From positions 124,001 to 188,000 of the forward strand of contig NZ_AUJU01000003.1 in assembly GCF_000424385.1 (NCBI RefSeq): a DNA stretch of 64,000 nucleotides, in the 5' to 3' direction. Positions 1-11,849 of this stretch are shown piece after piece. Both the position numbers and the translations under genes were made by a program. How positions within the stretch are numbered: position 1 is the stretch's first letter; every line of letters begins with the position of its first letter. Origin of the DNA: Butyrivibrio sp. LC3010 (GTDB lineage: Bacteria > Bacillota > Clostridia > Lachnospirales > Lachnospiraceae). The notes below the pieces were generated by a model. The model was not told where the DNA came from and ran no database searches. It saw only the letters and a program-made list of their open reading frames with translations.

Positions 1-1091
1 CGCTCTGTGGTATCCATGGACATTACTTCCTCTATGTAGGCGACAATAGCCATCAGAACCTCATTTACGTCTTCCCTGAAATCTCCGGCATAAGGGACAT
101 ATCCCTCTCTTGCAAAATATAATGCATCCGGCTCCTGATTCTCAGCAAAGACAAAGCTTATGGAAGGAACTCCTACCGCACATAGCTCATACAGTGTTGT
201 TCCTGCCGGAGTTATGGCTACATCACAGCTGTTCATAATGTCCGCCACATTGGACACATTCTGATGAAGCGCCACATATCCGTCCTCAATATACTGCTGA
301 ACCTTCTCAGTTACCCTGTAGAAGCGTCCTGCCAAAAGATGAATTTTCTTTTTTCCGTCTTTAAAATGAAGCTCAGGATATCTCATGATTGCACTGATAA
401 TCATCTCAGATAATCCCATACTGTCTGCACCGCCAGTTGTAAGAAAGATGTTATCAATTCCTCCTATATCGTAGCCAAAGGTCCTGTGAGCACCATCCGC
501 AGACTCCTGATTCTCGCCTGCCACAATGTCGATATTCACAAGAGCCTCTCCATCCGTACCAAGTCTTCCGATATCACTACTTATTCCTGTTCCACGGGAC
601 ATCCTGTTTCTCTGTACAAACTGATCTCTTATGGGAATATACTTCGTTCCAAGAAGGAGTGTCGGTGCCTCTCCTTCATAGAATTCCTCATAGGCAAGAT
701 CCGGAGCCCCGGGACTGTAATTTAGTATCGCAGTTGCCGGGAATCTTTCTTTTTGCATATCATCGATGTACATGGTGCGGATATCATTTGTTTCAAGCAT
801 CCGGATATACTCAGGAGTTGCGTAATAGCTGTCAACCAGCATGGCTGAAATTCCTTCCTCATGAAGGAAATCAAGAAGAACTATTATCTCCTGCTCAGGA
901 TTTCTCCAGTCTGAATCCAAAATCGCACATTCAAATTCACCCTGAATATAAGGGATTATATTATTATCAGCAGACACAAAGACGACAGAACACCCCATTT
1001 GCTGCAGGCTCATTGCAATAGTCCTGCAGCGCATGATATGTCCCGTCGCCACTATTTCGTTTGCATCCACACGAATCGCTATCTTACTCAA
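1..1091 (-). CDS. pseG: PseG, UDP-sugar hydrolase of pseudaminate synthesis (partial, 3' end outside window)
   Basis: PseG removes UDP from UDP-2,4-diacetamido-2,4,6-trideoxy-altropyranose in the cytoplasm, just before PseI acts. The frame is open from a TTG at 1091 to the window edge. Near the N-terminus it reads VDANEIVATGHIMRC, which matches the family pattern of a GxGH-like turn followed by RC. Further on come a glycine-rich donor-site segment (FLTTGGADSMGLSEM) and a late TPAGTTLYELCAVGVPS segment typical of GT-B UDP-sugar hydrolases. The TTG start overlaps the pseI stop by 8 bases, so the two are probably translationally coupled. No ATG lies close to the expected N-terminus. About 363 codons are visible, near full family length, so only the last residues are missing. 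Confidence 0.85.
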   Translation of the reverse strand, partial: MSKIAIRVDANEIVATGHIMRCRTIAMSLQQMGCSVVFVSADNNIIPYIQGEFECAILDSDWRNPEQEIIVLLDFLHEEGISAMLVDSYYATPEYIRMLETNDIRTMYIDDMQKERFPATAILNYSPGAPDLAYEEFYEGEAPTLLLGTKYIPIRDQFVQRNRMSRGTGISSDIGRLGTDGEALVNIDIVAGENQESADGAHRTFGYDIGGIDNIFLTTGGADSMGLSEMIISAIMRYPELHFKDGKKKIHLLAGRFYRVTEKVQQYIEDGYVALHQNVSNVADIMNSCDVAITPAGTTLYELCAVGVPSISFVFAENQEPDALYFAREGYVPYAGDFREDVNEVLMAIVAYIEEVMSMDTTE

Positions 1092-2121
1092 TTTCACTCC
1101 ATTCCAGCGGTGTTCCACGTGTTAGCTTATGTTTTGCCTTTTTACCAAGTACTTCTTCGTAATGCTTGGGCTTCATTCCCTGAATGTTGTAGGATCTTAT
1201 GCTTCTCACATTTTTCTCAGTAAGCACCTCACCCTCTTCAACATCCTCAACAATAAACAGGGATCTTCTGTTGGTATATTCTCCTGCCTCTGCTTCAGTA
1301 GGTCCGTAGAATATCTTACCAAGCGCAAGCTCTGCATCATGTACTCCCTTTACCATATCTGCGAATTCATGCGGTTCCATGGAAAATGCGGAATCTGCAG
1401 AAGGAAGATTTCTATCAAGGCAGAAATGCTTCTCAATGACAACTGCTCCAAGAGCTGCCGCAGCAATAGCTGCTGTTCCTCCCATGGAATGATCTGAGAG
1501 TCCCACGGGAACTCCAAACCTCTTCTGCATATCAGGAATTGTCCTCAAATTAAGATCTGCAGAAACTGTCGGATAAACACTGCAACATTTCAAAATAATT
1601 ATATTATCATTGCCCTCAGATCTTATGGCATCGATAGCTTCCTGGATCTCTTCCTCTGATCCCATGCCGGTTGACATGATGATAGGCTTTCCTGTTCTTG
1701 CTATATATTTTATAAGCGGAATATCAACAAGCTCAAAGGATGCGATCTTGTAGAATTCCTCACCGATGTTCTCAAGATAATCCACAGAAGTCTTATCAAA
1801 TGGAGTGGAAAGAAAATCTATTCCACACTCCTCACACTTTTTCTTAATAGGCTCCATCCACTCCCAGGGAGTATAGGCTTCCTTATAAAGATCATGGAGA
1901 TTATAACCATCCCAGAGACCACCATGGATCTTAAAAGCCTCTGCATCACAATCAATAGTAATAGTATCAGCAGTATAAGTCTGAGTCTTTAAACAATCCG
2001 CACCTGCCTTCGCGGCTTCCTCAACGATCTTAAGTGCGTTATCAAGGCTTCCGCCATGGTTAGCACTCATCTCCGCTATCATGTACGCTCTGTTATTTTT
2101 AAGACATTCGTCTAATTTCAT
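1084..2121 (-). CDS. pseI: PseI, pseudaminic acid synthase
   Basis: Condenses 2,4-diacetamido-2,4,6-trideoxy-altrose with phosphoenolpyruvate to give pseudaminic acid. At 345 residues it has the expected NeuB-like TIM barrel (about 1-285) and a C-terminal SAF/antifreeze-like domain (about 288-345). Visible motifs are AEMSANHGG, TPWEWMEP, STPFDKTSVDYLE, KIASFE, STGMGSEEEI, GLSDHSMGG and EKHFCLD. The stretch LPSADSAFSMEP and the LWDGYNLHDLYKEA insert favour PseI over sialic acid synthase NeuB. An AGGAG ribosome binding site precedes the ATG. It lies between pseF (45-bp gap) and pseG (overlap). A legionaminate or sialate synthase is the alternative, but the pseB and pseG neighbours argue against it. 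Confidence 0.9.
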   Translation of the reverse strand: MKLDECLKNNRAYMIAEMSANHGGSLDNALKIVEEAAKAGADCLKTQTYTADTITIDCDAEAFKIHGGLWDGYNLHDLYKEAYTPWEWMEPIKKKCEECGIDFLSTPFDKTSVDYLENIGEEFYKIASFELVDIPLIKYIARTGKPIIMSTGMGSEEEIQEAIDAIRSEGNDNIIILKCCSVYPTVSADLNLRTIPDMQKRFGVPVGLSDHSMGGTAAIAAAALGAVVIEKHFCLDRNLPSADSAFSMEPHEFADMVKGVHDAELALGKIFYGPTEAEAGEYTNRRSLFIVEDVEEGEVLTEKNVRSIRSYNIQGMKPKHYEEVLGKKAKHKLTRGTPLEWSEIE

Positions 2122-2166
2122 TAACTACTCCTCTTTAAAACTAAATGGTTTTATGTAAAAACCAGA

Positions 2167-2871
2167 TTATCTCAAAATTCCCTGTTCGGTGAGAAATTTA
2201 TATTTAAGCTCTGCTAAGAGCCAGTCACTCTCATTATCTATATCCTGGGACTCCACCGGGTCTATGATATAAGGGATAGACTTCTCCATAGTGGTGTCCT
2301 TCTGAATCTTAAATGCATCATTTCTGAAAATATAAAACTGTCCGCACTCATGATACTGTTTCTGCAAATCCTGACTTCTGGTTGTAGCATACTCAGGATG
2401 AAGCATCTTAACCAGTCCCTTATCATCAATAAAGAGACCTCTCTGGGGCGGATACGAAAACTCCTGCATAGGTACGATAGACTCAGCGCCTGATTTTACA
2501 AGCTCATCCATAGCTTCCTTAAGCTTCCTTGCAGTAACAAACGGAGCTGTAGGATATATGCAGCAGCCGTATTCAAAGCTTCTACCCATCTCCTCATATC
2601 TGTCCAACACTTCAAGAAGCACATCAGCCGTAGTTGCTGTATCGTTTGAAGTCTCAGCGGACCTGTAAAACGGAACACTGGCACCTGCTGCCTTTGAAAT
2701 CTCTGCTATCTCCTCATCATCAGTTGATACCATGACTTCATCAAATATCCCGGATTTCAATGCCGCTTCTATTGAATAATTTATTATCGGTTTACCATTG
2801 AATATTTTTATATTTTTACGTGGTATACGTTTACTTCCACCACGAGCTGTAATTATTGCTATCGCACTCAT
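2167..2871 (-). CDS. pseF: PseF, CMP-pseudaminic acid cytidylyltransferase
   Basis: Activates pseudaminic acid with CTP to the CMP-sugar used by transferases. The 234-residue protein has the N-terminal nucleotide-binding motif ITARGGSKRIPRKN (7-20), the VSTDD segment near 49-53, and the YHECGQFY element that corresponds to the YPDAGQFY-like signature of PseF proteins rather than to sialate CMP transferases. GGAGAG upstream of the ATG serves as ribosome binding site. The order pseB, pseF, pseI, pseG means four of the six pathway enzymes are present. PseC (aminotransferase) and PseH (N-acetyltransferase) are not seen here and could lie beyond the window edge. Confidence 0.88.
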   Translation of the reverse strand: MSAIAIITARGGSKRIPRKNIKIFNGKPIINYSIEAALKSGIFDEVMVSTDDEEIAEISKAAGASVPFYRSAETSNDTATTADVLLEVLDRYEEMGRSFEYGCCIYPTAPFVTARKLKEAMDELVKSGAESIVPMQEFSYPPQRGLFIDDKGLVKMLHPEYATTRSQDLQKQYHECGQFYIFRNDAFKIQKDTTMEKSIPYIIDPVESQDIDNESDWLLAELKYKFLTEQGILR

Positions 2872-2936
2872 TAATGCTCTCCATAGTACTGAAATATGAT
2901 GTAAGAGTCAAAAAATAAATTTTGCCCTAAAAGTAC

Positions 2937-2961
2937 GAACCCCCGCAAACTGCAGGGATTC
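2937..2961. terminator. Hairpin between pseB and pseF (possible attenuator)
   Basis: A 10-bp stem (GAACCCCCGC paired with GCAGGGATTC, two G-U pairs when read on the minus strand) closes a 5-base loop. It sits in the 172-bp gap between pseB and pseF. No clean T-run follows on the minus strand (GTACTTTTAGG), so it is a weak terminator or processing site at best and could reduce expression of pseF, pseI and pseG relative to pseB. Confidence 0.4.
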
Positions 2962-3043
2962 GGATTTTTACAGGATATCGGATTTCCTAAAAAATTCGGT
3001 ATCACATAATTTATATAAGGTATTCTTACAATTAGCTCAGATA

Positions 3044-4045
3044 TCAGTGGTCAACAGCCTCATGAAGTCTGTTTCTGATCTCCTGTACGCTCATCCACTC
3101 AGTATTATTACCTGAGCTGTAGTAGAAGCCATCAGCAACCTTCCTTCCCTTGGGATCCGGAAGCTGTCTGTCGTTAAATATTACCTGAGGATATACAATG
3201 TAGTGCTTATCAAATTCATAGGTAAAAGGTGCATCCTCAACTGAAACCATGCATTCGTCGAGCTTCTCACCAGGACGGATTCCAACCTCAGTTGTTGCAA
3301 TACCCGGATACATAGCTTCTGCAAGGTCCTTGACATTAAATGAAGGAATCTTGCTGATAAAGGTCTCACCACCCTTAGCTTCTTCCAAAGCCTTGAGAAC
3401 AAGTTCAACACCTTCAGGAAGACTGATCCAGAAACGCGTCATTCTGTAATCAGTAATAGGAAGCTCCTTCTCACCATTTTCAACAAGTCTCTTAAAGAGA
3501 GGAATGATAGAGCCGCGACTTCCTGCTACATTACCATATCTGACAATTGAGAAATTGATATCCTTATTACCGGCATATGCATTAGCAGCTATAAAGAGCT
3601 TATCTGAAACCATCTTAGTAGCGCCGTAGAGGTTCACAGGATTTACAGCCTTATCGGTACTAAGCGCAACAACACGCTTAACTCCTGTATTCAGCGCAGC
3701 ATTTATAACATTCTGAGCTCCGTTTACATTCGTCTTGATAGCTTCATCCGGATTGTACTCACAAGCCGGAACCTGTTTAAGAGCTGCTGCATGGACTACA
3801 TAATCAACACCCTCCATAGCGCGCTCCATACGGGCACCATCTCTGACGTCACCAATGAAAAATCTCATCTGATCAGCATGTTCTCTATAAACCTTTTCAT
3901 TAGACATAGTGAACTGCTTATACTCATCACGGGAATATACTATGATCTTCTTGGGATTGTAATGCTCAAGAAGATACTCAGTAAAGCAATGACCAAATGA
4001 TCCTGTTCCTCCTGTTACAAGTATGGTTTTATCATCTAATTTCAT
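3044..4045 (-). CDS. pseB: PseB, UDP-GlcNAc 4,6-dehydratase (inverting)
   Basis: First step of pseudaminate synthesis: UDP-GlcNAc to UDP-4-keto-6-deoxy-AltNAc. It is a 333-residue short-chain dehydrogenase/reductase with the Rossmann motif TGGTGSFG (11-18), a catalytic STDKA segment (Asp131, Lys132) and YGATK (Tyr140, Lys144). The Asp-Lys pair replacing the usual Thr is the hallmark of the soluble FlaA1/PseB branch. Length also matches PseB rather than the long membrane-bound dehydratases. Ribosome binding site AAGAGG lies 7 bases before the ATG. It is separated by 123 bp from the upstream GT-C gene and may have its own promoter. Confidence 0.92.
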   Translation of the reverse strand: MKLDDKTILVTGGTGSFGHCFTEYLLEHYNPKKIIVYSRDEYKQFTMSNEKVYREHADQMRFFIGDVRDGARMERAMEGVDYVVHAAALKQVPACEYNPDEAIKTNVNGAQNVINAALNTGVKRVVALSTDKAVNPVNLYGATKMVSDKLFIAANAYAGNKDINFSIVRYGNVAGSRGSIIPLFKRLVENGEKELPITDYRMTRFWISLPEGVELVLKALEEAKGGETFISKIPSFNVKDLAEAMYPGIATTEVGIRPGEKLDECMVSVEDAPFTYEFDKHYIVYPQVIFNDRQLPDPKGRKVADGFYYSSGNNTEWMSVQEIRNRLHEAVDH

Positions 4046-4168: not shown

Positions 4169-5944
4169 CTACTCCATCACATACTGTGTCCACATCTCTT
4201 TATTATATACTTCCCTAAGATCCCCAAGGTCAGTCCTTTTCTCTTCCAGAGCTTTTAATATCGCATCCCTGTTATCATGGTCCGCTGCATAGATCACTAC
4301 CTTATCTGCTGCTGCAAGCTTCTCATCCTCAAGAGCTTTTGTATTTGCCTCACTTACATAATAAAGCTCATCATACTCCAAAAGCTCATCGGTAAGTCTC
4401 CAGATGTTGTCAGGTGTCGCATCATTGTACATTACCACTGCCGCGGCCCCTTTCCCATCCATCTCCTTTGCATAAGCTATTCGTCCGGCATCTTCAGGAT
4501 AGAGGAACAGCACGTTCTGATCTATAACAATACCCTTAAGTATTATTGTCAGGAACAGAATAAAGGTAACAAGTACCGGTATCTGCATATCCAAAAAACT
4601 TCTGTTGCCGACGATTGCTCTTATTCCAATTCTTGTAAAATATGCAGAAAGCAGAAGTACTATCGGATAAATGGGCATTTCATATCTGTTTGATGTATCT
4701 CCAAGAAGGAGCGCTGTCTTAGCAACGATCAGAAAATATCCCAGGGCAGCCACCGTAAGAATTCTTATGTGAGCAATGTGAAGCTTGTCCTTTTCACCCT
4801 TTACCCTGAGAAGGAAAAACAGAGCAATAAGGGCAATCACGATCATTACTATTACAATCCAGAGCATTCCTGAAAAAAGATAATCATCAGCAAGTCCGAA
4901 AAAGAAGCCAAAACGATCCAGGATGTTGGACATATCTGAAAAAGCATCCGCAGCTTCCTTCCCCCTGTATCCCCTGAAAATATGAGAAAGGGCTGCAGGA
5001 TAAATGCCAACTGCTGCCACAAGTGAAACTACAGCTCCTGCACAATAAACAACAATATATTTGAACCGCTCCGCCATAGAAGCCGCCTGCATTACAAACT
5101 CTTCATCCCCGAGAATGCTCTCTATGGTTATTGGATTTGTGTTATTTTCATTGTCACCTGTCTGCCTTTTTTTCCTTCTGTTTTTAGGCATAAGGAACAG
5201 GAACCATATGGAAAATGATAATCCCATCGTTACCATAAATATCAGGTAATAGTACTGCGTAAGAAATCCAAAAAGGCTTACAAGACAGATGCCTGCAACG
5301 TATCCTGCAAAACCCTTTTTAAATTTAGTATCGAAGGGCTTTGCAAGAACAAATCCCTTAAGTTCATTTCCTGAATAATATTTCTTTATAAGACTTATCA
5401 GCTTAAGATGCAGATATGCTGACGCAAGAATAAATACCGTAAGCCACATATACATTCTTATAAAAAGCACACAGGATATCGTCATAGGATTAAAGCCATA
5501 GGCAAACATCAAAGCAATCCTGAGCCCCCTGCTCATTCCTATACTTTTGGCAAGCTTTTCCAGAAGAACAAAGCTTATTATAAAAGCCAGGAGATTTACT
5601 GTTATTCCCTGCCATTTGCTGAATACTCCCGGAGTTATTGAGCATACTGTATGAAGCAGATCATAGAAAAACGGAGGATGCACATCCCAGGACTGAACCT
5701 GATGCACCAGACCATAATTAAAGCCCTCTCCCTTCTGCACTGTAAACTCATTTTCTATGACATCCGTATCAACCCATTCCCTGTCAGGGTAGTAGAATCC
5801 AAGACTTCTGTTGGTAGAAAAATATGAGTAATACTCATCCTGATGAAACCCTGCTTTCTGCACGCCAAAAAGACAGATACCTGCTATCTGCACGACCAAA
5901 ATAAGGAGTAATATTATAGTGTACTGTTTAGAATTGAATTTCAT
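4169..5944 (-). CDS. GT-C-type membrane glycosyltransferase, GT39/ArnT-like
   Basis: Predicted polytopic protein of 591 residues with about ten or more hydrophobic segments and a soluble C-terminal tail (about 490-591). Residues about 30-41 read KAGFHQDEYYSY, and the first large loop has WDVHPPFFYDL near residue 87. An acidic DE pair in loop 1 followed by DxHPP is the pattern of PMT/ArnT-like lipid-phosphate-sugar transferases. Such enzymes move a sugar from a polyprenyl phosphate donor to an acceptor outside the membrane. The donor could be made by the GtrB-like enzyme at 16037-16969 (inference). It shares a 4-base ATGA overlap with the GT2 gene upstream. Confidence 0.65.
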   Translation of the reverse strand: MKFNSKQYTIILLLILVVQIAGICLFGVQKAGFHQDEYYSYFSTNRSLGFYYPDREWVDTDVIENEFTVQKGEGFNYGLVHQVQSWDVHPPFFYDLLHTVCSITPGVFSKWQGITVNLLAFIISFVLLEKLAKSIGMSRGLRIALMFAYGFNPMTISCVLFIRMYMWLTVFILASAYLHLKLISLIKKYYSGNELKGFVLAKPFDTKFKKGFAGYVAGICLVSLFGFLTQYYYLIFMVTMGLSFSIWFLFLMPKNRRKKRQTGDNENNTNPITIESILGDEEFVMQAASMAERFKYIVVYCAGAVVSLVAAVGIYPAALSHIFRGYRGKEAADAFSDMSNILDRFGFFFGLADDYLFSGMLWIVIVMIVIALIALFFLLRVKGEKDKLHIAHIRILTVAALGYFLIVAKTALLLGDTSNRYEMPIYPIVLLLSAYFTRIGIRAIVGNRSFLDMQIPVLVTFILFLTIILKGIVIDQNVLFLYPEDAGRIAYAKEMDGKGAAAVVMYNDATPDNIWRLTDELLEYDELYYVSEANTKALEDEKLAAADKVVIYAADHDNRDAILKALEEKRTDLGDLREVYNKEMWTQYVME

Positions 5945-7080
5945 TTTATTCTCCTAATCCCCGCATGCACTTTTCTCACAAATTTGGGGCTTAAAGAAAG
6001 GAGTAACAGATATACTCTGTTTTTCTTTGAAAGATACGGATTGTTCAATATATCCTTCATATGTTTTCTCAAAAATCCTACAACAATTTTTCTATAAAAT
6101 TTATTGCTGTAATTCATCTTACTTATCGGAATATGCAGCAGGTAATCAAGCCTTTGTATAAGGCAGAATCTGACTGCAATCTCATGAAGCGAAGGAAAGC
6201 TCTTATTCACAAGTCTTAATGCCACATCCGAATTTCTTACAATATCCGTGAACACAGGAGGAAAATAGTCCTTCTGATCTGCTTTCTTTCTTGAATTACT
6301 GCCCGTTCTGTAAAATACGTGGTAATACTGCTGAGGTAAAATCACAAGCTTTCCTACCTTCTTAAGCATATGTATCATCAGATAGAAATCCTCATTTAAT
6401 TCTCCCTCGGGAAAGCCCTTGCAGCTGCCTGTAAAAAGCTCTCTGCTGGTGAGTTTCGTACAAAATGAGGCATCGCCTGTATGAAGAAGTAAAGTTTTTA
6501 AATGCTCCTCTCCTGAAATAATCAGCTGCTTCTTAGGGGGTATACAAACATCAGGAAGCCTTTCTCCGCTTTCTGCGATTTCATCCCTTGAAGCCTGAGC
6601 CATTAAAACAGGTGATTCCTCTGTGCTGTTCTCCTCAATGGCACGCATCAGATCCTCGTACATATGATGATCGATGTAGTCATCCGCATCGACAAATCCC
6701 AGATAGTCTCCTGTTGCAGCGGATATTCCAAGGTTTCTCGCCTTACTGCTGCCGCCATTTTCCTGATGAAGCAGTGTTATGGAAGGACCTGTGCTGTTTC
6801 TCAAAAAGTTCTCGCCTTCCTCATAGCGAAGCTGTCCCCAATTCTTTTTTATATATTCCTCTGCTCTTTTATAAGTGTTGTCTGTTGAGCCATCATCCAC
6901 GACTATAACTTCAAGAAGCTCATCAGGATAACTCTGATGACACACACTCTCAAGGCACCTTACAATAAGATCCTCTATGTTATAGGCAGGTATTATCACA
7001 CTTATCTTTTTTGTAAACAATAGTTCCTCCGATATCATTAAATCTGATTCATATTTATGCCGGGACTTCCGGTTATTCAT
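5941..7080 (-). CDS. Family 2 glycosyltransferase
   Basis: Cytoplasmic GT-A transferase of 379 residues. The N-terminal catalytic domain has ISVIIPAYN (about 26-34), VIVVDDGSTDNT and the metal-binding FVDADDYI; the C-terminal half is helical and rich in basic residues. The first 14 residues precede the domain and an internal ATG (MISEELLF) is an alternative start. The stop overlaps the next gene by 4 bases, showing operon coupling. Donor and acceptor cannot be read from the sequence. Confidence 0.8.
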   Translation of the reverse strand: MNNRKSRHKYESDLMISEELLFTKKISVIIPAYNIEDLIVRCLESVCHQSYPDELLEVIVVDDGSTDNTYKRAEEYIKKNWGQLRYEEGENFLRNSTGPSITLLHQENGGSSKARNLGISAATGDYLGFVDADDYIDHHMYEDLMRAIEENSTEESPVLMAQASRDEIAESGERLPDVCIPPKKQLIISGEEHLKTLLLHTGDASFCTKLTSRELFTGSCKGFPEGELNEDFYLMIHMLKKVGKLVILPQQYYHVFYRTGSNSRKKADQKDYFPPVFTDIVRNSDVALRLVNKSFPSLHEIAVRFCLIQRLDYLLHIPISKMNYSNKFYRKIVVGFLRKHMKDILNNPYLSKKNRVYLLLLSLSPKFVRKVHAGIRRIK

Positions 7081-7091
7081 ATAAATCCGGC

Positions 7092-8339
7092 TTATTCAAG
7101 ATGGTTATCCTCTTTTAAAGTCCTTCTTATTCCTGGAGCCTTTAAAACAAGCGCTTTACTTAACGGTCCATCATCCGGATTTTTAAAATCTTTGTTTTTG
7201 ATAATGCATTCGCTAAATTCAAGAAGTCTTTTTGCCGCAACACCTGCATTCCAGGTATCCGCTATGGCCAAATAGGCTTTTTTCTGAAGGCTTCTTACGT
7301 AGTCTGCTCTGACCATATAAGATCCATTCTTTTTATCAGCTTCTTCCAATAGCTCATCTATCTTCCCAAGAAGCTTATCCTTATCACAATCATCAAAGGT
7401 AAGTCCGTTTTCTCCATCCTTTATAAGGTAGGGTACTGCTCCCGCTTCAGAGGATGCCACCACTGCACAGGCACTGTTCATGGCTTCATTCACCACGGCT
7501 CCCCATCCTTCAAGGTAATTGCTTGCAAAGATGAAAAGATGGCTTTTTTCCATGATACCTCTTACTTTCTCAGGAGGTACTGCGCCATGCATGGTTACAT
7601 ATTCTTCGAGAGCCTTATCCTTTATCATCTCCTTAAGTCCGGATGAAAGTGGGCCGTCTCCCACAATATCCAAATGAAAATCGATATTTTTCTTCTTAAG
7701 ATACCCGGCTACCTCTAATGATAGTTCCGGGTGCTTAAGCTTTATAAGTCTTGCAGCAAAGCATATCCTTAGCTTTTCTCCATCCTTATATAGCATGTTC
7801 GAAAGTTCATCTTCACTATATCTTTTAAGAGGCGGAAAATATCCCCATTTAAAAAGCTTTCCGGGATAGGCACCTATAAGCTTAAAATCTCCTGATACAT
7901 ATGCCCCCGCACAGAGCATATAGACAGGACTGTTTCTATACTTTATGTGCTCTTCGAACTTTGCCTTCAAGCCTCTTGGTGATATGGCTTTCCATCTGCC
8001 CTCGCGGTATATTCTCTCACTAACCCTTATCACAGGTTTTCCCTGATCAAGTCTTTGCCTTATGAGGCGTTCCGAAGGGCTGTCCTTATCCTGACCTGTC
8101 CATCCGAGTATCAGAACGTCACAATCTCTGATCTTATCACCGCAGGACTTCTCATCCTCATATATCCTGAAAACATATGGCAAAGCTTTCGTGTCAGCAT
8201 TCCAGCCCATCTGTCTTCTGCCCTCATCCATAGGCTGAGACTCTATAAATGCAAAATCCTCTGAAAGCTCATCATATAACTCATCACATAACGGTATCTG
8301 ATGATGATTTATAAAGTTAGATATAAAAGTTATCTTTAT
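7092..8339 (-). CDS. Family 4 glycosyltransferase with apparent AUA start codon
   Basis: GT-B retaining transferase, 415 residues if read from ATA at 8339. The C-terminal half has the donor-site pattern (ICFAARLIKLKHPE, IVGDGP, SNYLEGWGAVVNEAM with the E-x7-E arrangement, AGAVPYLIKDGENGL). The first ATG is at 8231 but would remove 36 residues, including KITFISNFINHHQIPLCDEL, which is the conserved GT4 first strand and acceptor-site region. In frame between the stop at 8354 and 8231 there is no ATG, GTG or TTG. A perfect AGGAGG (8352-8347) stands 7 bases before ATA at 8339; ATC at 8342 is the alternative. Either a rare start is used or ATG mutated to ATA. Confidence 0.75.
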   Translation of the reverse strand: MKITFISNFINHHQIPLCDELYDELSEDFAFIESQPMDEGRRQMGWNADTKALPYVFRIYEDEKSCGDKIRDCDVLILGWTGQDKDSPSERLIRQRLDQGKPVIRVSERIYREGRWKAISPRGLKAKFEEHIKYRNSPVYMLCAGAYVSGDFKLIGAYPGKLFKWGYFPPLKRYSEDELSNMLYKDGEKLRICFAARLIKLKHPELSLEVAGYLKKKNIDFHLDIVGDGPLSSGLKEMIKDKALEEYVTMHGAVPPEKVRGIMEKSHLFIFASNYLEGWGAVVNEAMNSACAVVASSEAGAVPYLIKDGENGLTFDDCDKDKLLGKIDELLEEADKKNGSYMVRADYVRSLQKKAYLAIADTWNAGVAAKRLLEFSECIIKNKDFKNPDDGPLSKALVLKAPGIRRTLKEDNHLE

Positions 8340-8357
8340 GATTATTCCTCCTCAGGC

Positions 8358-9683
8358 TTAAGAAACTGATGAAATCATTGTCCTGTATATTTCTATAAGT
8401 CTCTTATAGTTCTCCGAAGCGTCATGGGTTATCATTGCATGCTTCCTTGCGTTATCACCGTAAACAGCTGCAATTACAGGTTCTCTGAACATCTGTCTTA
8501 TGCATTTTGCAAGATCCTGCGGATTGCCGGGTTCAAACAACAATCCATCCACATTTTTCTCCAGCATGCTTGGTATACCACCTGTTTCTGCGGCAATAGT
8601 GGGAACGCCCAGGAGCATTGCTTCCGCCATGGAATTAGGGGAGTTCTCCAATATTGAAGGGCATATGAAAAGATTGCACTTAAGTAGCTGTTCCTTCATC
8701 TGCTCTGCTGAAAGCTTCCCAAGCATTATAACCTTTCCGCCAAGCTTACCTCTACGTATAAGTCTTTTCAGATATTTACCATAGGCTGAAATTCTTATAG
8801 CCAGTGGATAAATGCTTTTCCCTGATGCATTTTTCTGTTCATCGGGAATAGTTACTGTTTTTCTTTTTATTTTTCCTATTACGCTGTTACCTGCCACATA
8901 TAATTTAGTGTCAGGAAACTCCTTTAGGATCTCAGGCAGTGCCTCAAGAACAAAGTGGAATCCCTTCAGGGGATAATCACCCTGCGATAAGAAAATACTG
9001 TGGGGAATCGTGTTTACAGATCTCCAGGCATTCTTATAAAACGTAGGCCTCATGGTCTCGTTCATCTTAAAGTACCTTGCCTTGGGATTTATTCTCTCAG
9101 TGACCTGTCTGTCAAAATCCGTTCGCCCTGTGATATTGCCTGCAAGTCTTATGGCTTCATTCTCATTCTCAGCGCGCTTTTCGAATTTCTCCTTTTGCTG
9201 CATGAGAGAGTCATTTTTATATCTGTCTCTGAAGGTTGTATCCGTTATTACATTATCGGGAAGACCTGCCATATAGACCTTTGCAATCTCGGAGCACACC
9301 CCCTGTATCCCCAGAAGTGTCCTCTCCGGTTTTCCAAATGCCTTTATTGCAGCAAGATTATGAGGGAATTCTGTTCCGAAAACATGCACGATATCCGGCT
9401 CAAAATCCTTATAAATCTCCTTGAATCTCTCCTCAATAGTGGCGTCATAAATTTCAGGAGCATTCAGATTCTCTGAAAATCCGTAAAACAAAACTCCATT
9501 TATTTTCTTTTTATTTAATCCTTCCGCAGGAAAAGCTACGCCAAGCGTTATTCCGCCTTCACCTTTCCCTGAAGAAATCCTCTCATAAGCGCCGGAAAGC
9601 CATCCCTCTCTCTCTGACCAGGAAAGGCCCACAGCCTTGGCATATGCCGGCAGCATTATGTTACAAACCCACAAAACTTTCAT
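8358..9683 (-). CDS. Family 4 glycosyltransferase
   Basis: GT-B transferase of 441 residues. The N-terminus MKVLWVCNIMLPAYA is the GT4 first strand. DIVHVFGTEFPHN lies in the acceptor domain. The donor domain contains LYVAGNSV, a variable insert about 290-330, CNLFICPSILENSPNSMAEAMLLGVP and ETGGIPSMLEKNVDGLLFEPG. A 10-bp gap separates it from the GT2 gene upstream and an 18-bp gap, containing the next gene's AGGAGG site, lies downstream. It probably adds a hexose or 6-deoxyhexose to the repeat unit on the cytoplasmic face; specificity is unknown. Confidence 0.85.
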   Translation of the reverse strand: MKVLWVCNIMLPAYAKAVGLSWSEREGWLSGAYERISSGKGEGGITLGVAFPAEGLNKKKINGVLFYGFSENLNAPEIYDATIEERFKEIYKDFEPDIVHVFGTEFPHNLAAIKAFGKPERTLLGIQGVCSEIAKVYMAGLPDNVITDTTFRDRYKNDSLMQQKEKFEKRAENENEAIRLAGNITGRTDFDRQVTERINPKARYFKMNETMRPTFYKNAWRSVNTIPHSIFLSQGDYPLKGFHFVLEALPEILKEFPDTKLYVAGNSVIGKIKRKTVTIPDEQKNASGKSIYPLAIRISAYGKYLKRLIRRGKLGGKVIMLGKLSAEQMKEQLLKCNLFICPSILENSPNSMAEAMLLGVPTIAAETGGIPSMLEKNVDGLLFEPGNPQDLAKCIRQMFREPVIAAVYGDNARKHAMITHDASENYKRLIEIYRTMISSVS

Positions 9684-9693
9684 TTATCCCCTC

Positions 9694-10674
9694 TTACCTG
9701 TGTCTGTAAATCAGACTTTTTATCTTATTATATACCCCTGCAGTTTTGGGGTTCTCAGCAATTTTCGTTCTAAGCGGAGCAAGTGTAAGAGCTCTTATGG
9801 TATCAAATCTCTGAATCTGCTTCTTAGTAAGGTAGAGATGTATTATCTGCTGCCTCTCTGTCTCAGAAACCTTGCGGTTTTCCCTTGTCTCTGAGAATCC
9901 GCCTCCCTCGTAGTCCGCTATCAGAAGGTTCATATACTTGGTCTCCGCTTTCTCAACATAGAAGCAGCGAAGGAAGTGCTCGTAATCAGCTCTAACCTTC
10001 CAGACCGTATCGAATGCATATCTAAGCACCAGCCTCTCATCATAAAAACACGCCTGGTGAGAAGGAACATTCCTATAACATGCAAAATCATCTATCTTTG
10101 GATTGGATGATACCCTCTGAGAGGTCTTCATCTCATATATATCGCCGTAATAAATAGTAGGCACTATCGTTCCTGAATTCTTGGCATCAAGCTGAATTTT
10201 CTCGTGAACCTTTTTCAGAACCTGATTACTGGAGAACACATCACCGCAGTTCAGAAAATAGACATACCCCGGTGCCGTATCCGATACACTGCGCCCCTTT
10301 TCATTTCTCATGGCGTCAACTGCCATATTCATGGCATCGTATATTCCGTGGTCTTTACTCCTTATGATTCTTATTCTTCCATCTCTGTATCTGATATCGT
10401 AAGAACCATTGGTGTTAATTTTGCCGGCACTTATGCGGCGTCTACCCTCGACAGTATTCTTTAAAGAATTATCATTCTTTCCATTGTCCAAAGGCTCCTT
10501 GTCTATTCCAAGGCATTTTGCGGCTCTCTCAAGAGAACCGTCTGTGGAGCCTCCGTCCTTTATGATGATTGCAACATCCTTAAAGGTCTGCATTTTAATG
10601 CTTTCCAGGGTCTTTATCAGGTCGTCCCCTGCATTATACGAAACAACTATAATTGTAAAAAAAGGTCTTTTCAT
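9694..10674 (-). CDS. Family 2 glycosyltransferase with internal insert
   Basis: GT-A enzyme of 326 residues starting MKRPFFTIIVVSYN. After IIIKDGGSTDGSLE (about 37-50) there is an insert of some 40 charged residues before IRSKDHGIYDAMNMAVDAM, so the usual motif spacing is stretched. VYFLNCGDVF stands where the DxD motif is normally found, with Asn-Cys-Gly-Asp in place of two aspartates; NCGD or NADD forms are common in the WcaA/EpsE-like subgroup. YEHFLRCFY near 240 corresponds to the acceptor-base region. It lies 11 bp downstream of the polymerase gene. Confidence 0.78.
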   Translation of the reverse strand: MKRPFFTIIVVSYNAGDDLIKTLESIKMQTFKDVAIIIKDGGSTDGSLERAAKCLGIDKEPLDNGKNDNSLKNTVEGRRRISAGKINTNGSYDIRYRDGRIRIIRSKDHGIYDAMNMAVDAMRNEKGRSVSDTAPGYVYFLNCGDVFSSNQVLKKVHEKIQLDAKNSGTIVPTIYYGDIYEMKTSQRVSSNPKIDDFACYRNVPSHQACFYDERLVLRYAFDTVWKVRADYEHFLRCFYVEKAETKYMNLLIADYEGGGFSETRENRKVSETERQQIIHLYLTKKQIQRFDTIRALTLAPLRTKIAENPKTAGVYNKIKSLIYRHR

Positions 10675-10685
10675 ATCATACCTCG

Positions 10686-11849
10686 TCAGCCAAATCCTCT
10701 TTCTGATAACGTAGCAGGAAGTTCATGGAACAAAAATGTTTCATAGGGAAGAATCCTTACTCCATCGGCACTGCCTCTTTTCATATACACGACAAAGTAC
10801 AGCGCACATCCGGCTATAGTCAAAATATAAAGGGTTTTCCCCAGCCTGTAGCTTTTATCATCCCTTGAGTTTATCACTTTGTTTATAAGTGCAGGTACAT
10901 ATAAAATCTGAGTCACGCTGTAATAATACGCAATTCTTGATACAGTTGGAAGGAATGCGCAGAACACATATAGTATCAGTGCCCCCAGATTTGCATAAAA
11001 GTAGAAGCTCATCCTTCTATCCTTTATTATATCCCTCCCAAGAATGATTGCAGCAAGTATCAGCACCCCTGCACATCTGAGTATACTGATTCTGCTTGTT
11101 CCGCCCTGTAGGTACTCTGTTCCCTCGTAGGATGGATAAAGCTTTATCGCTATTTTCAAATATATATCATTTAAGAAGATACATGATACAGATAAAAGTG
11201 CCAGCACGCAGTACATCCATCTCTTCCATTTCATGGCGGCAAGAGGATATAGCACTAAAACCACCAGCAGTGATTTATGAAAAAGGCTGCCGCACAATAT
11301 AAGCAGAACAAATCCCGGCCAGTCTTTTTTTATGCAAAGATCGATTGAGTAAAGCGCAATAGCAAGTGCCAGGTAGTATCTGACCGTGCTGATAGACTGA
11401 AAATAGTAGCCCAGCAGCATGAACATCATAAAAGATAAAAAAAAGTCCTCCGCCTGTCTGCTTATTGCAGCAAGGAAGAAGAAAACTGTCGCTGCCGCAA
11501 ATACAGCAAATACTCCTACATAATTCTCAAATCCCGATAATGTATAAATTATCTTTGTAAGATAGTTAAATCCCGCTTCCGTGGGAACCACTGCTCCGCT
11601 AAAGGTTCGGTGCATGAACTCCACATATTTACTGTAGTCATTCCCCACATTCAGCCTGAGTGCAGAAACTCCTGTGAGAAGTACAAATAAGGAAAAGAGT
11701 CCTGCTGCCTTCCTTGCCTGTCCTCTGCTTATTCCCCGATATATGAAATTGTACTCCTTTGTAACCTCAGGCACTGTAGCATTATTCCTCATGTTGATAG
11801 AATAGGCTATCGCCAGTGTTACCAGCGTGAGTGTTAAATATACCAGCAT
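10686..11849 (-). CDS. EpsG/Wzy-like polysaccharide polymerase
   Basis: Integral membrane protein of 387 residues with about ten to eleven hydrophobic segments. The pattern of a short N-terminal segment, then RLNVGNDYSKYVEFM, then GFENYVGVFAVFAA and YYLALAIALYSI, then GSLFHKSLLVVLVLY, is that of the EpsG family, in which polymerisation of lipid-linked repeat units takes place outside the membrane. It is the only polymerase candidate inside the main cluster. Its position between GT2 genes supports this role. No Wzx flippase gene is visible in the cluster, although one of the large membrane proteins could fill the gap. Confidence 0.7.
   Translation of the reverse strand: MLVYLTLTLVTLAIAYSINMRNNATVPEVTKEYNFIYRGISRGQARKAAGLFSLFVLLTGVSALRLNVGNDYSKYVEFMHRTFSGAVVPTEAGFNYLTKIIYTLSGFENYVGVFAVFAAATVFFFLAAISRQAEDFFLSFMMFMLLGYYFQSISTVRYYLALAIALYSIDLCIKKDWPGFVLLILCGSLFHKSLLVVLVLYPLAAMKWKRWMYCVLALLSVSCIFLNDIYLKIAIKLYPSYEGTEYLQGGTSRISILRCAGVLILAAIILGRDIIKDRRMSFYFYANLGALILYVFCAFLPTVSRIAYYYSVTQILYVPALINKVINSRDDKSYRLGKTLYILTIAGCALYFVVYMKRGSADGVRILPYETFLFHELPATLSERGFG

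Follow-up and report, generated by a model that had tools for sequence, protein, structure and literature searches.

Organization of the transferase locus

The window analyzed here is the whole stretch of 64,000 nucleotides from Butyrivibrio sp. LC3010 (genome G000), and all gene coordinates refer to its minus strand (Table 1). A gene for a GT4-type glycosyltransferase is located in an exopolysaccharide cluster. The predicted protein matched the Pfam family PF00534 (Glycos_transf_1) with 107.2 bits against the Pfam cut-off of 26.4; no NCBIfam model reached the cut-off for this protein. The predicted model is GT-B-like, with a mean pLDDT of 89.3 and a pTM of 0.90, and its best match among solved structures was BshA (6n1x; E value 3.9e-16; TM 0.59 by query length), followed among the GT-B structures by MshA and, further down the list, by PimB' and HepE.

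Table 1. Features of the glycosyltransferase locus and its start region
Feature	Position	Strand	Evidence or remark
GT4-type glycosyltransferase gene, 415 codons counted from ATA	7092..8339	-	PF00534 match; GT-B-like model
ATA, most likely glycosyltransferase start codon	8337..8339	-	7 bases past AGGAGG; alignment to homologs
AGGAGG, Shine-Dalgarno (SD) sequence	8347..8352	-	duplex of -12.1 kcal/mol with anti-SD tail
ATA ATC, additional in-frame AUN codons, less likely starts	8340..8345	-	ATA 8345, spacing 1; ATC 8342, spacing 4
TGA, last in-frame stop ahead of the transferase gene	8352..8354	-	sequence
ATG, codon 37, first in-frame canonical start, not a likely start	8229..8231	-	would remove beta1-alpha1-beta2
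Upstream glycosyltransferase gene	8358..9683	-	TAA ends 18 bases before ATA
GT2-type transferase, upstream in syntenic block	9694-10674	-	sequence
Presumed polymerase, upstream in syntenic block	10686-11849	-	without family match
Downstream GT2-type glycosyltransferase	5941..7020	-	likely start TTG 7020

The label of polymerase in Table 1 represents our own assumption. Homologs of PseI, PseF, and PseB, all above the NCBIfam cut-offs, are encoded at 1084-4045 of the window, and thus the synthesis of a pseudaminic acid-type sugar is encoded nearby. An EPS polyprenyl glycosylphosphotransferase also passes the NCBIfam cut-off as a neighbor of the transferase. With respect to the downstream GT2-type gene, the probable TTG start follows GGAGG and is preferred to ATG 7080; its relatives start mostly with TTG or GTG.

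Layout of the start region

The order of elements on the minus strand is TAA (8360-8358), TGA (8354-8352), AGGAGG, AATAATC, ATA (8339-8337), and AAG ATA ACT TTT, the first A of AGGAGG being the last base of the TGA. The initial annotation had described a stop at TGA, a perfect AGGAGG, and an in-frame ATA 8339 at a 7-base spacing, that is, a correctly spaced SD sequence before a non-canonical codon, and these letters and coordinates proved right. Its second statement, that neither ATG, GTG, nor TTG is present in frame from ATA 8339 for 36 codons, until ATG 8231, was likewise confirmed by the sequence. The duplex of this SD sequence is among the strongest of the genus homologs compared. Since the probability of finding AGGAGG anywhere in a random 20-base stretch is about 0.004 and the hexamer is placed at a start defined by homology, its presence is more than chance. 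Folding of the start-region RNA (100-base folds) in four species gave nothing unusual, with z scores of 0.69 for this genome and -0.64, -0.24, and -0.82 for the others, leaving RNA structure at the start unsupported as the cause of the weak codon.

Constraint on the codons preceding ATG 8231

Substitutions were compared for all pairs among 12 genomes. The differing fractions at codon positions 1, 2, and 3 were 0.071, 0.089, and 0.496 for codons 2-16; 0.223, 0.177, and 0.529 for codons 2-36; and 0.282, 0.213, and 0.573 for codons 37-415. The ten codons (30 bases) upstream gave 0.691, 0.674, and 0.706 in an ungapped comparison, indicating that they are unconserved. Across 39 homologs, nine residues do not vary (S7, N8, I10, N11, H12, H13, Q14, P16, and C18), and they map to beta1, the following loop, and helix alpha1 of the predicted model. 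A start at codon 37 would drop beta1 (residues 3-7), alpha1 (15-28), and beta2 (29-33) of the predicted fold. Because variation is mainly at the third position and beta1-alpha1-beta2 is predicted there, the codons before ATG 8231 look translated by this comparison, with protein-level constraint on codons 2-36.

Start codon of the homologs within the genus

Among 79 genomes of the genus searched, 72 were read at the start and 70 contained the anchor motif; G018 and G033 were read but lacked the motif, and no usable start was obtained from G015, G017, G039, G102, G103, G108, and G115. The codon aligned with ATA 8339 in the 70 homologs was ATG in 32, GTG in 15, TTG in 12, ATA in 6, ATC in 2, and ATT, TTA, and GCA in one each. 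Since 59 of the 70 homologs thus carry ATG, GTG, or TTG at the aligned codon, the canonical start was lost. All 23 named loci from more distant relatives (L033-L055) have ATG at this codon. Additional relatives were sought in viral_contigs, giving none, and in plasmids, giving one distant match (30.6%).

As for the 11 homologs without NTG at the aligned codon, eight have an in-frame NTG upstream; in the remaining three, G000, G054, and G036, NTG does not occur in frame anywhere from the last in-frame stop to the conserved motif. The sister genome G054 carries AAGGAGG-7-ATT (SD, -11.7 kcal/mol), the ATT being on the same codon as ATA 8339, and G036 carries GAGGG-7-ATA (SD, -6.9), the ATA being one codon earlier than the aligned codon. 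Candidate starts upstream were found in G011 (TTG, 3 codons before the aligned codon; SD, -8.7), G005 (ATG, 7 codons before; SD, -6.8), and G055 (GTG, 13 codons before; SD, -2.1). These may be the real starts there, and for this reason the strictly NTG-free cases are counted as three. In G026 and G027, ATG is located at the preceding codon, in G013 ATG is located two codons before, and G029 has GTG in place.

Of the 59 homologs with NTG at the aligned codon, 27 have GTG or TTG; for the starts with the best SD, the corresponding counts are 60 of 373 (G000 sample) and 75 of 331 (G054 sample). This genus-wide excess for the transferase hints at a preference for low output but falls short of proof, as the two counts were not made in quite the same way and the homologs share ancestry.

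Loss of the canonical start in a six-species clade

As a control, 12 other genes of the cluster were examined over the same 11 genomes, and 121 of the 132 gene-genome pairs were readable; for two of these genes, the expected position (codon 21 and codon 25) was assigned manually once the starts of the relatives had been seen. The transferase had no canonical start within two codons in 6 of the 11 genomes; among the control pairs, this was the case in 1 of 121. The corresponding values were 9/11 against 7/121 at a tolerance of 0, 7/11 against 1/121 at a tolerance of 1, and 5/11 against 1/121 at a tolerance of 3. The Fisher values were less than 1e-5, which overstates the case because the genomes are related.

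The six species without a canonical start within two codons are G000, G054, G036, G011, G005, and G055. In a tree of five neighboring genes from 14 genomes, with supports read as bipartitions, this six-species clade was recovered with a support of 100 and the pair of G000 and G054 with 99; in the tree of the transferase alone, the supports were 45 and 96, respectively. In the simplest history, the canonical start would have been lost once, ahead of the split of the six species, with later codon turnover and possibly new upstream starts. The presence of ATT in G054 and of ATA one codon earlier in G036 points to an old loss that is not confined to this strain, and ATA 8339 is unlikely to be a private mutation or an error. 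The initial annotation had proposed either a functional start or an ATG-to-ATA mutation, to be settled by alignment with relatives, and the alignment gave something of both: the canonical codons of most homologs bear out the loss of a normal start, but the non-canonical codons of the close relatives argue against a recent mutation in this strain. Because the lineages are so few, the missing return to ATG should not be taken as evidence of selection against ATG.

Frequency of AUN starts

ORFs were screened for an AUN codon preceded by a strong SD match (duplex, -8.5 kcal/mol or better) and separated by more than 3 codons from the first NTG downstream; we excluded AUN codons with NTG one or two codons on, which adjoin ordinary starts, as well as SD matches inside a frame that already has NTG upstream. 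In a G000 sample of 464 kb (the window and 400 kb of other stretches), the transferase was the only one among 375 ORFs to be selected, and a separate scan with exact SD hexamers over 378 ORFs likewise gave AUN candidates at the transferase only. In the G054 sample (417 kb), three of 335 ORFs were selected including the transferase, the other two being followed by NTG after 9 and 7 codons. Neither of these samples thus shows AUN starts in wide use. The infC gene of Butyrivibrio-type genomes has GGAGG and then ATT at the aligned start in 11 of 11 cases (L096-L106; read by eye).

A dispersed palindromic element

A dispersed palindromic element with a GGATGAGG tail was observed among the relatives (for instance, L057:8551-8577 and L062:9124-9150), and the changes within its stem (GGCAC/GTGCC, GGCGC/GCGCC, and GGCCC/GGGCC) preserve pairing. 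Exact copies numbered 54 in G036, 51 in G055, 47 in G011, 13 in G054, 10 each in G005 and G026, one in G013, and none in G000; as the source of AGGAGG in G000 the element was therefore rejected. One copy lies just upstream of the transferase gene in G011 and G055, and a stem-changed variant in G005 (by eye), where the element may supply the SD sequence of this gene. In 8 of 32 copies (30 loci; two copies counted twice), an ORF starts no more than 30 bases from the end of the element, so in some cases its tail may act as an SD sequence.

Evaluation of alternative explanations

The identification of AUA 8339 as the start of a GT4-type transferase, as the initial annotation had it, is well supported by genome comparison. 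The explanation that we consider probable is that this AUA represents a weak AUN start aided by a strong SD sequence, forming a lasting low-output start, with the loss of the canonical codon predating the six-species clade. Translation from ATG 8231, with the preceding 36 codons untranslated or vestigial, is what gene-finding software that accepts only ATG, GTG, and TTG would choose, this being the first such codon in frame, but it appears very improbable in view of the protein-level constraint on codons 2-36, the nine invariant residues up to C18 that precede codon 37, and the loss of beta1-alpha1-beta2 from the predicted fold. A sequencing or assembly error at 8337, the true codon being ATG, could be imagined from the single strain of the species being represented by one draft assembly (66 contigs, 4.59 Mb) and from ATA being one base away from ATG. 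Such an error is, however, hardly credible, given that this codon is ATT in the separately assembled sister G054 (6 contigs) and that G036 is also without NTG at this place. As close relatives thus also lack a normal start there, a lasting low-output start is favored over a sequencing slip.

That several species have lost a canonical start codon might point to gene decay, with the transferase turning into a pseudogene, but all 415 of 415 codons are open here, the orthologs in G054, G011, G036, G005, and G055 contain no internal stop, and the substitution pattern of the whole gene is that of a constrained protein, leaving decay with hardly any probability. Translational coupling, in which ribosomes ending at TAA 8360-8358 re-initiate 18 bases on, would use the same start codon by another mechanism. 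The SD sequence lies between this stop and ATA, the upstream stop is 26 bases (G054) and 13 bases (G036) before the aligned codon, and in G026 and G027 the stop and the start overlap as ATGA; the stop-to-start distance is nevertheless not conserved (40 in G005, 53 in G055, and 115 in G011), and coupling leaves the loss of the canonical codon unexplained, so that we regard it as rather unlikely. Fusion or frameshift with the upstream gene was rejected because the upstream TAA and the second in-frame TGA both precede the transferase gene; it is also countered by the frame relation to the upstream gene, which differs among the relatives.

Comparison with known non-canonical starts

To our knowledge, few natural AUA or AUU starts have been documented outside infC. 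The expression of E. coli pcnB is reportedly limited by an inefficient AUU start, as the title of a paper has it; this gene shares an AUN start with the transferase but is unrelated. The AUN start of infC is repressed by IF3 (PMC5472188), and in S. aureus this start is AUA (PMC13009471). Like the transferase gene, infC has its AUN start after an SD sequence, but its product is IF3, which closes a feedback loop, whereas the product here is a sugar transferase whose control by IF3 is putative. The starts of Staphylococcus ccpN (AUA) and cvfC1 (AUU) were mapped by Ribo-Ret, and AUA and AUU starts in S. aureus gave a reporter yield below that of AUG and carry extended SD sequences (PMC13009471). 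These genes resemble the transferase in that an AUN start goes with an SD sequence that is strong or extended, but they are unrelated genes with conserved, experimentally mapped starts, while the putative transferase start turns over between species. Streptomyces sigR starts with GTC, or GTT in two species, and is kept genus-wide with a conserved strong RBS, as described in PMC5472188. There, a non-canonical start, a strong RBS, and a codon change within the genus are shared with the transferase; the codon is GTC and not AUN, and repression by IF3 and stoichiometry were demonstrated for sigR (PMC5472188). Non-canonical starts with a good SD sequence are thus already known (infC, sigR, ccpN, cvfC1, and pcnB), and what is new here is a glycan gene. 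A prior report of this AUA start was not found in the literature searched, among the matches listed.

Proposed mode of initiation and its implications

Initiation with fMet would take place at AUA 8339, where the poor codon-anticodon match would be offset by the perfect AGGAGG at a spacing of 7; the 30S subunit would be held by the strong SD sequence with AUA in the P site, and initiation would be inefficient. Very strong SD sequences accompany the non-canonical codons in both this species and its sister G054. IF3 opposes initiation at AUA-type codons (PMC5472188), and might discriminate against AUA 8339 as at infC, the likely effect being a low output of one exopolysaccharide transferase. By analogy with infC, sigR, and staphylococcal ccpN, the start is probably IF3-sensitive. 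The start would have been canonical in distant ancestors, lost by the ancestor of the six-species clade, and non-canonical since then, with turnover between ATA and ATT. From these comparisons we infer initiation at 8339 itself together with a low yield, sensitivity to IF3, and any selection for a low dose. A reduced dose, dependence on IF3, and an altered glycan structure, as suggested at the outset, would fit the evidence.

Gene finders restricted to ATG, GTG, and TTG would shorten proteins with such starts. Comparison among relatives reveals here a start codon that ceased to be canonical and stayed so in related species, with a strong SD sequence in place. The locus offers a simple natural test case for two questions: do weak starts persist in glycan assembly because they restrict dose, and does IF3 in this group control more than its own gene? 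More speculatively, and with considerable doubt on our part, this Butyrivibrio clade may keep an SD-balanced AUN start for a low and IF3-responsive level of the exopolysaccharide transferase, which would then be an IF3-sensitive glycan-assembly gene through which the state of the translation machinery would tune the composition of the surface glycan.
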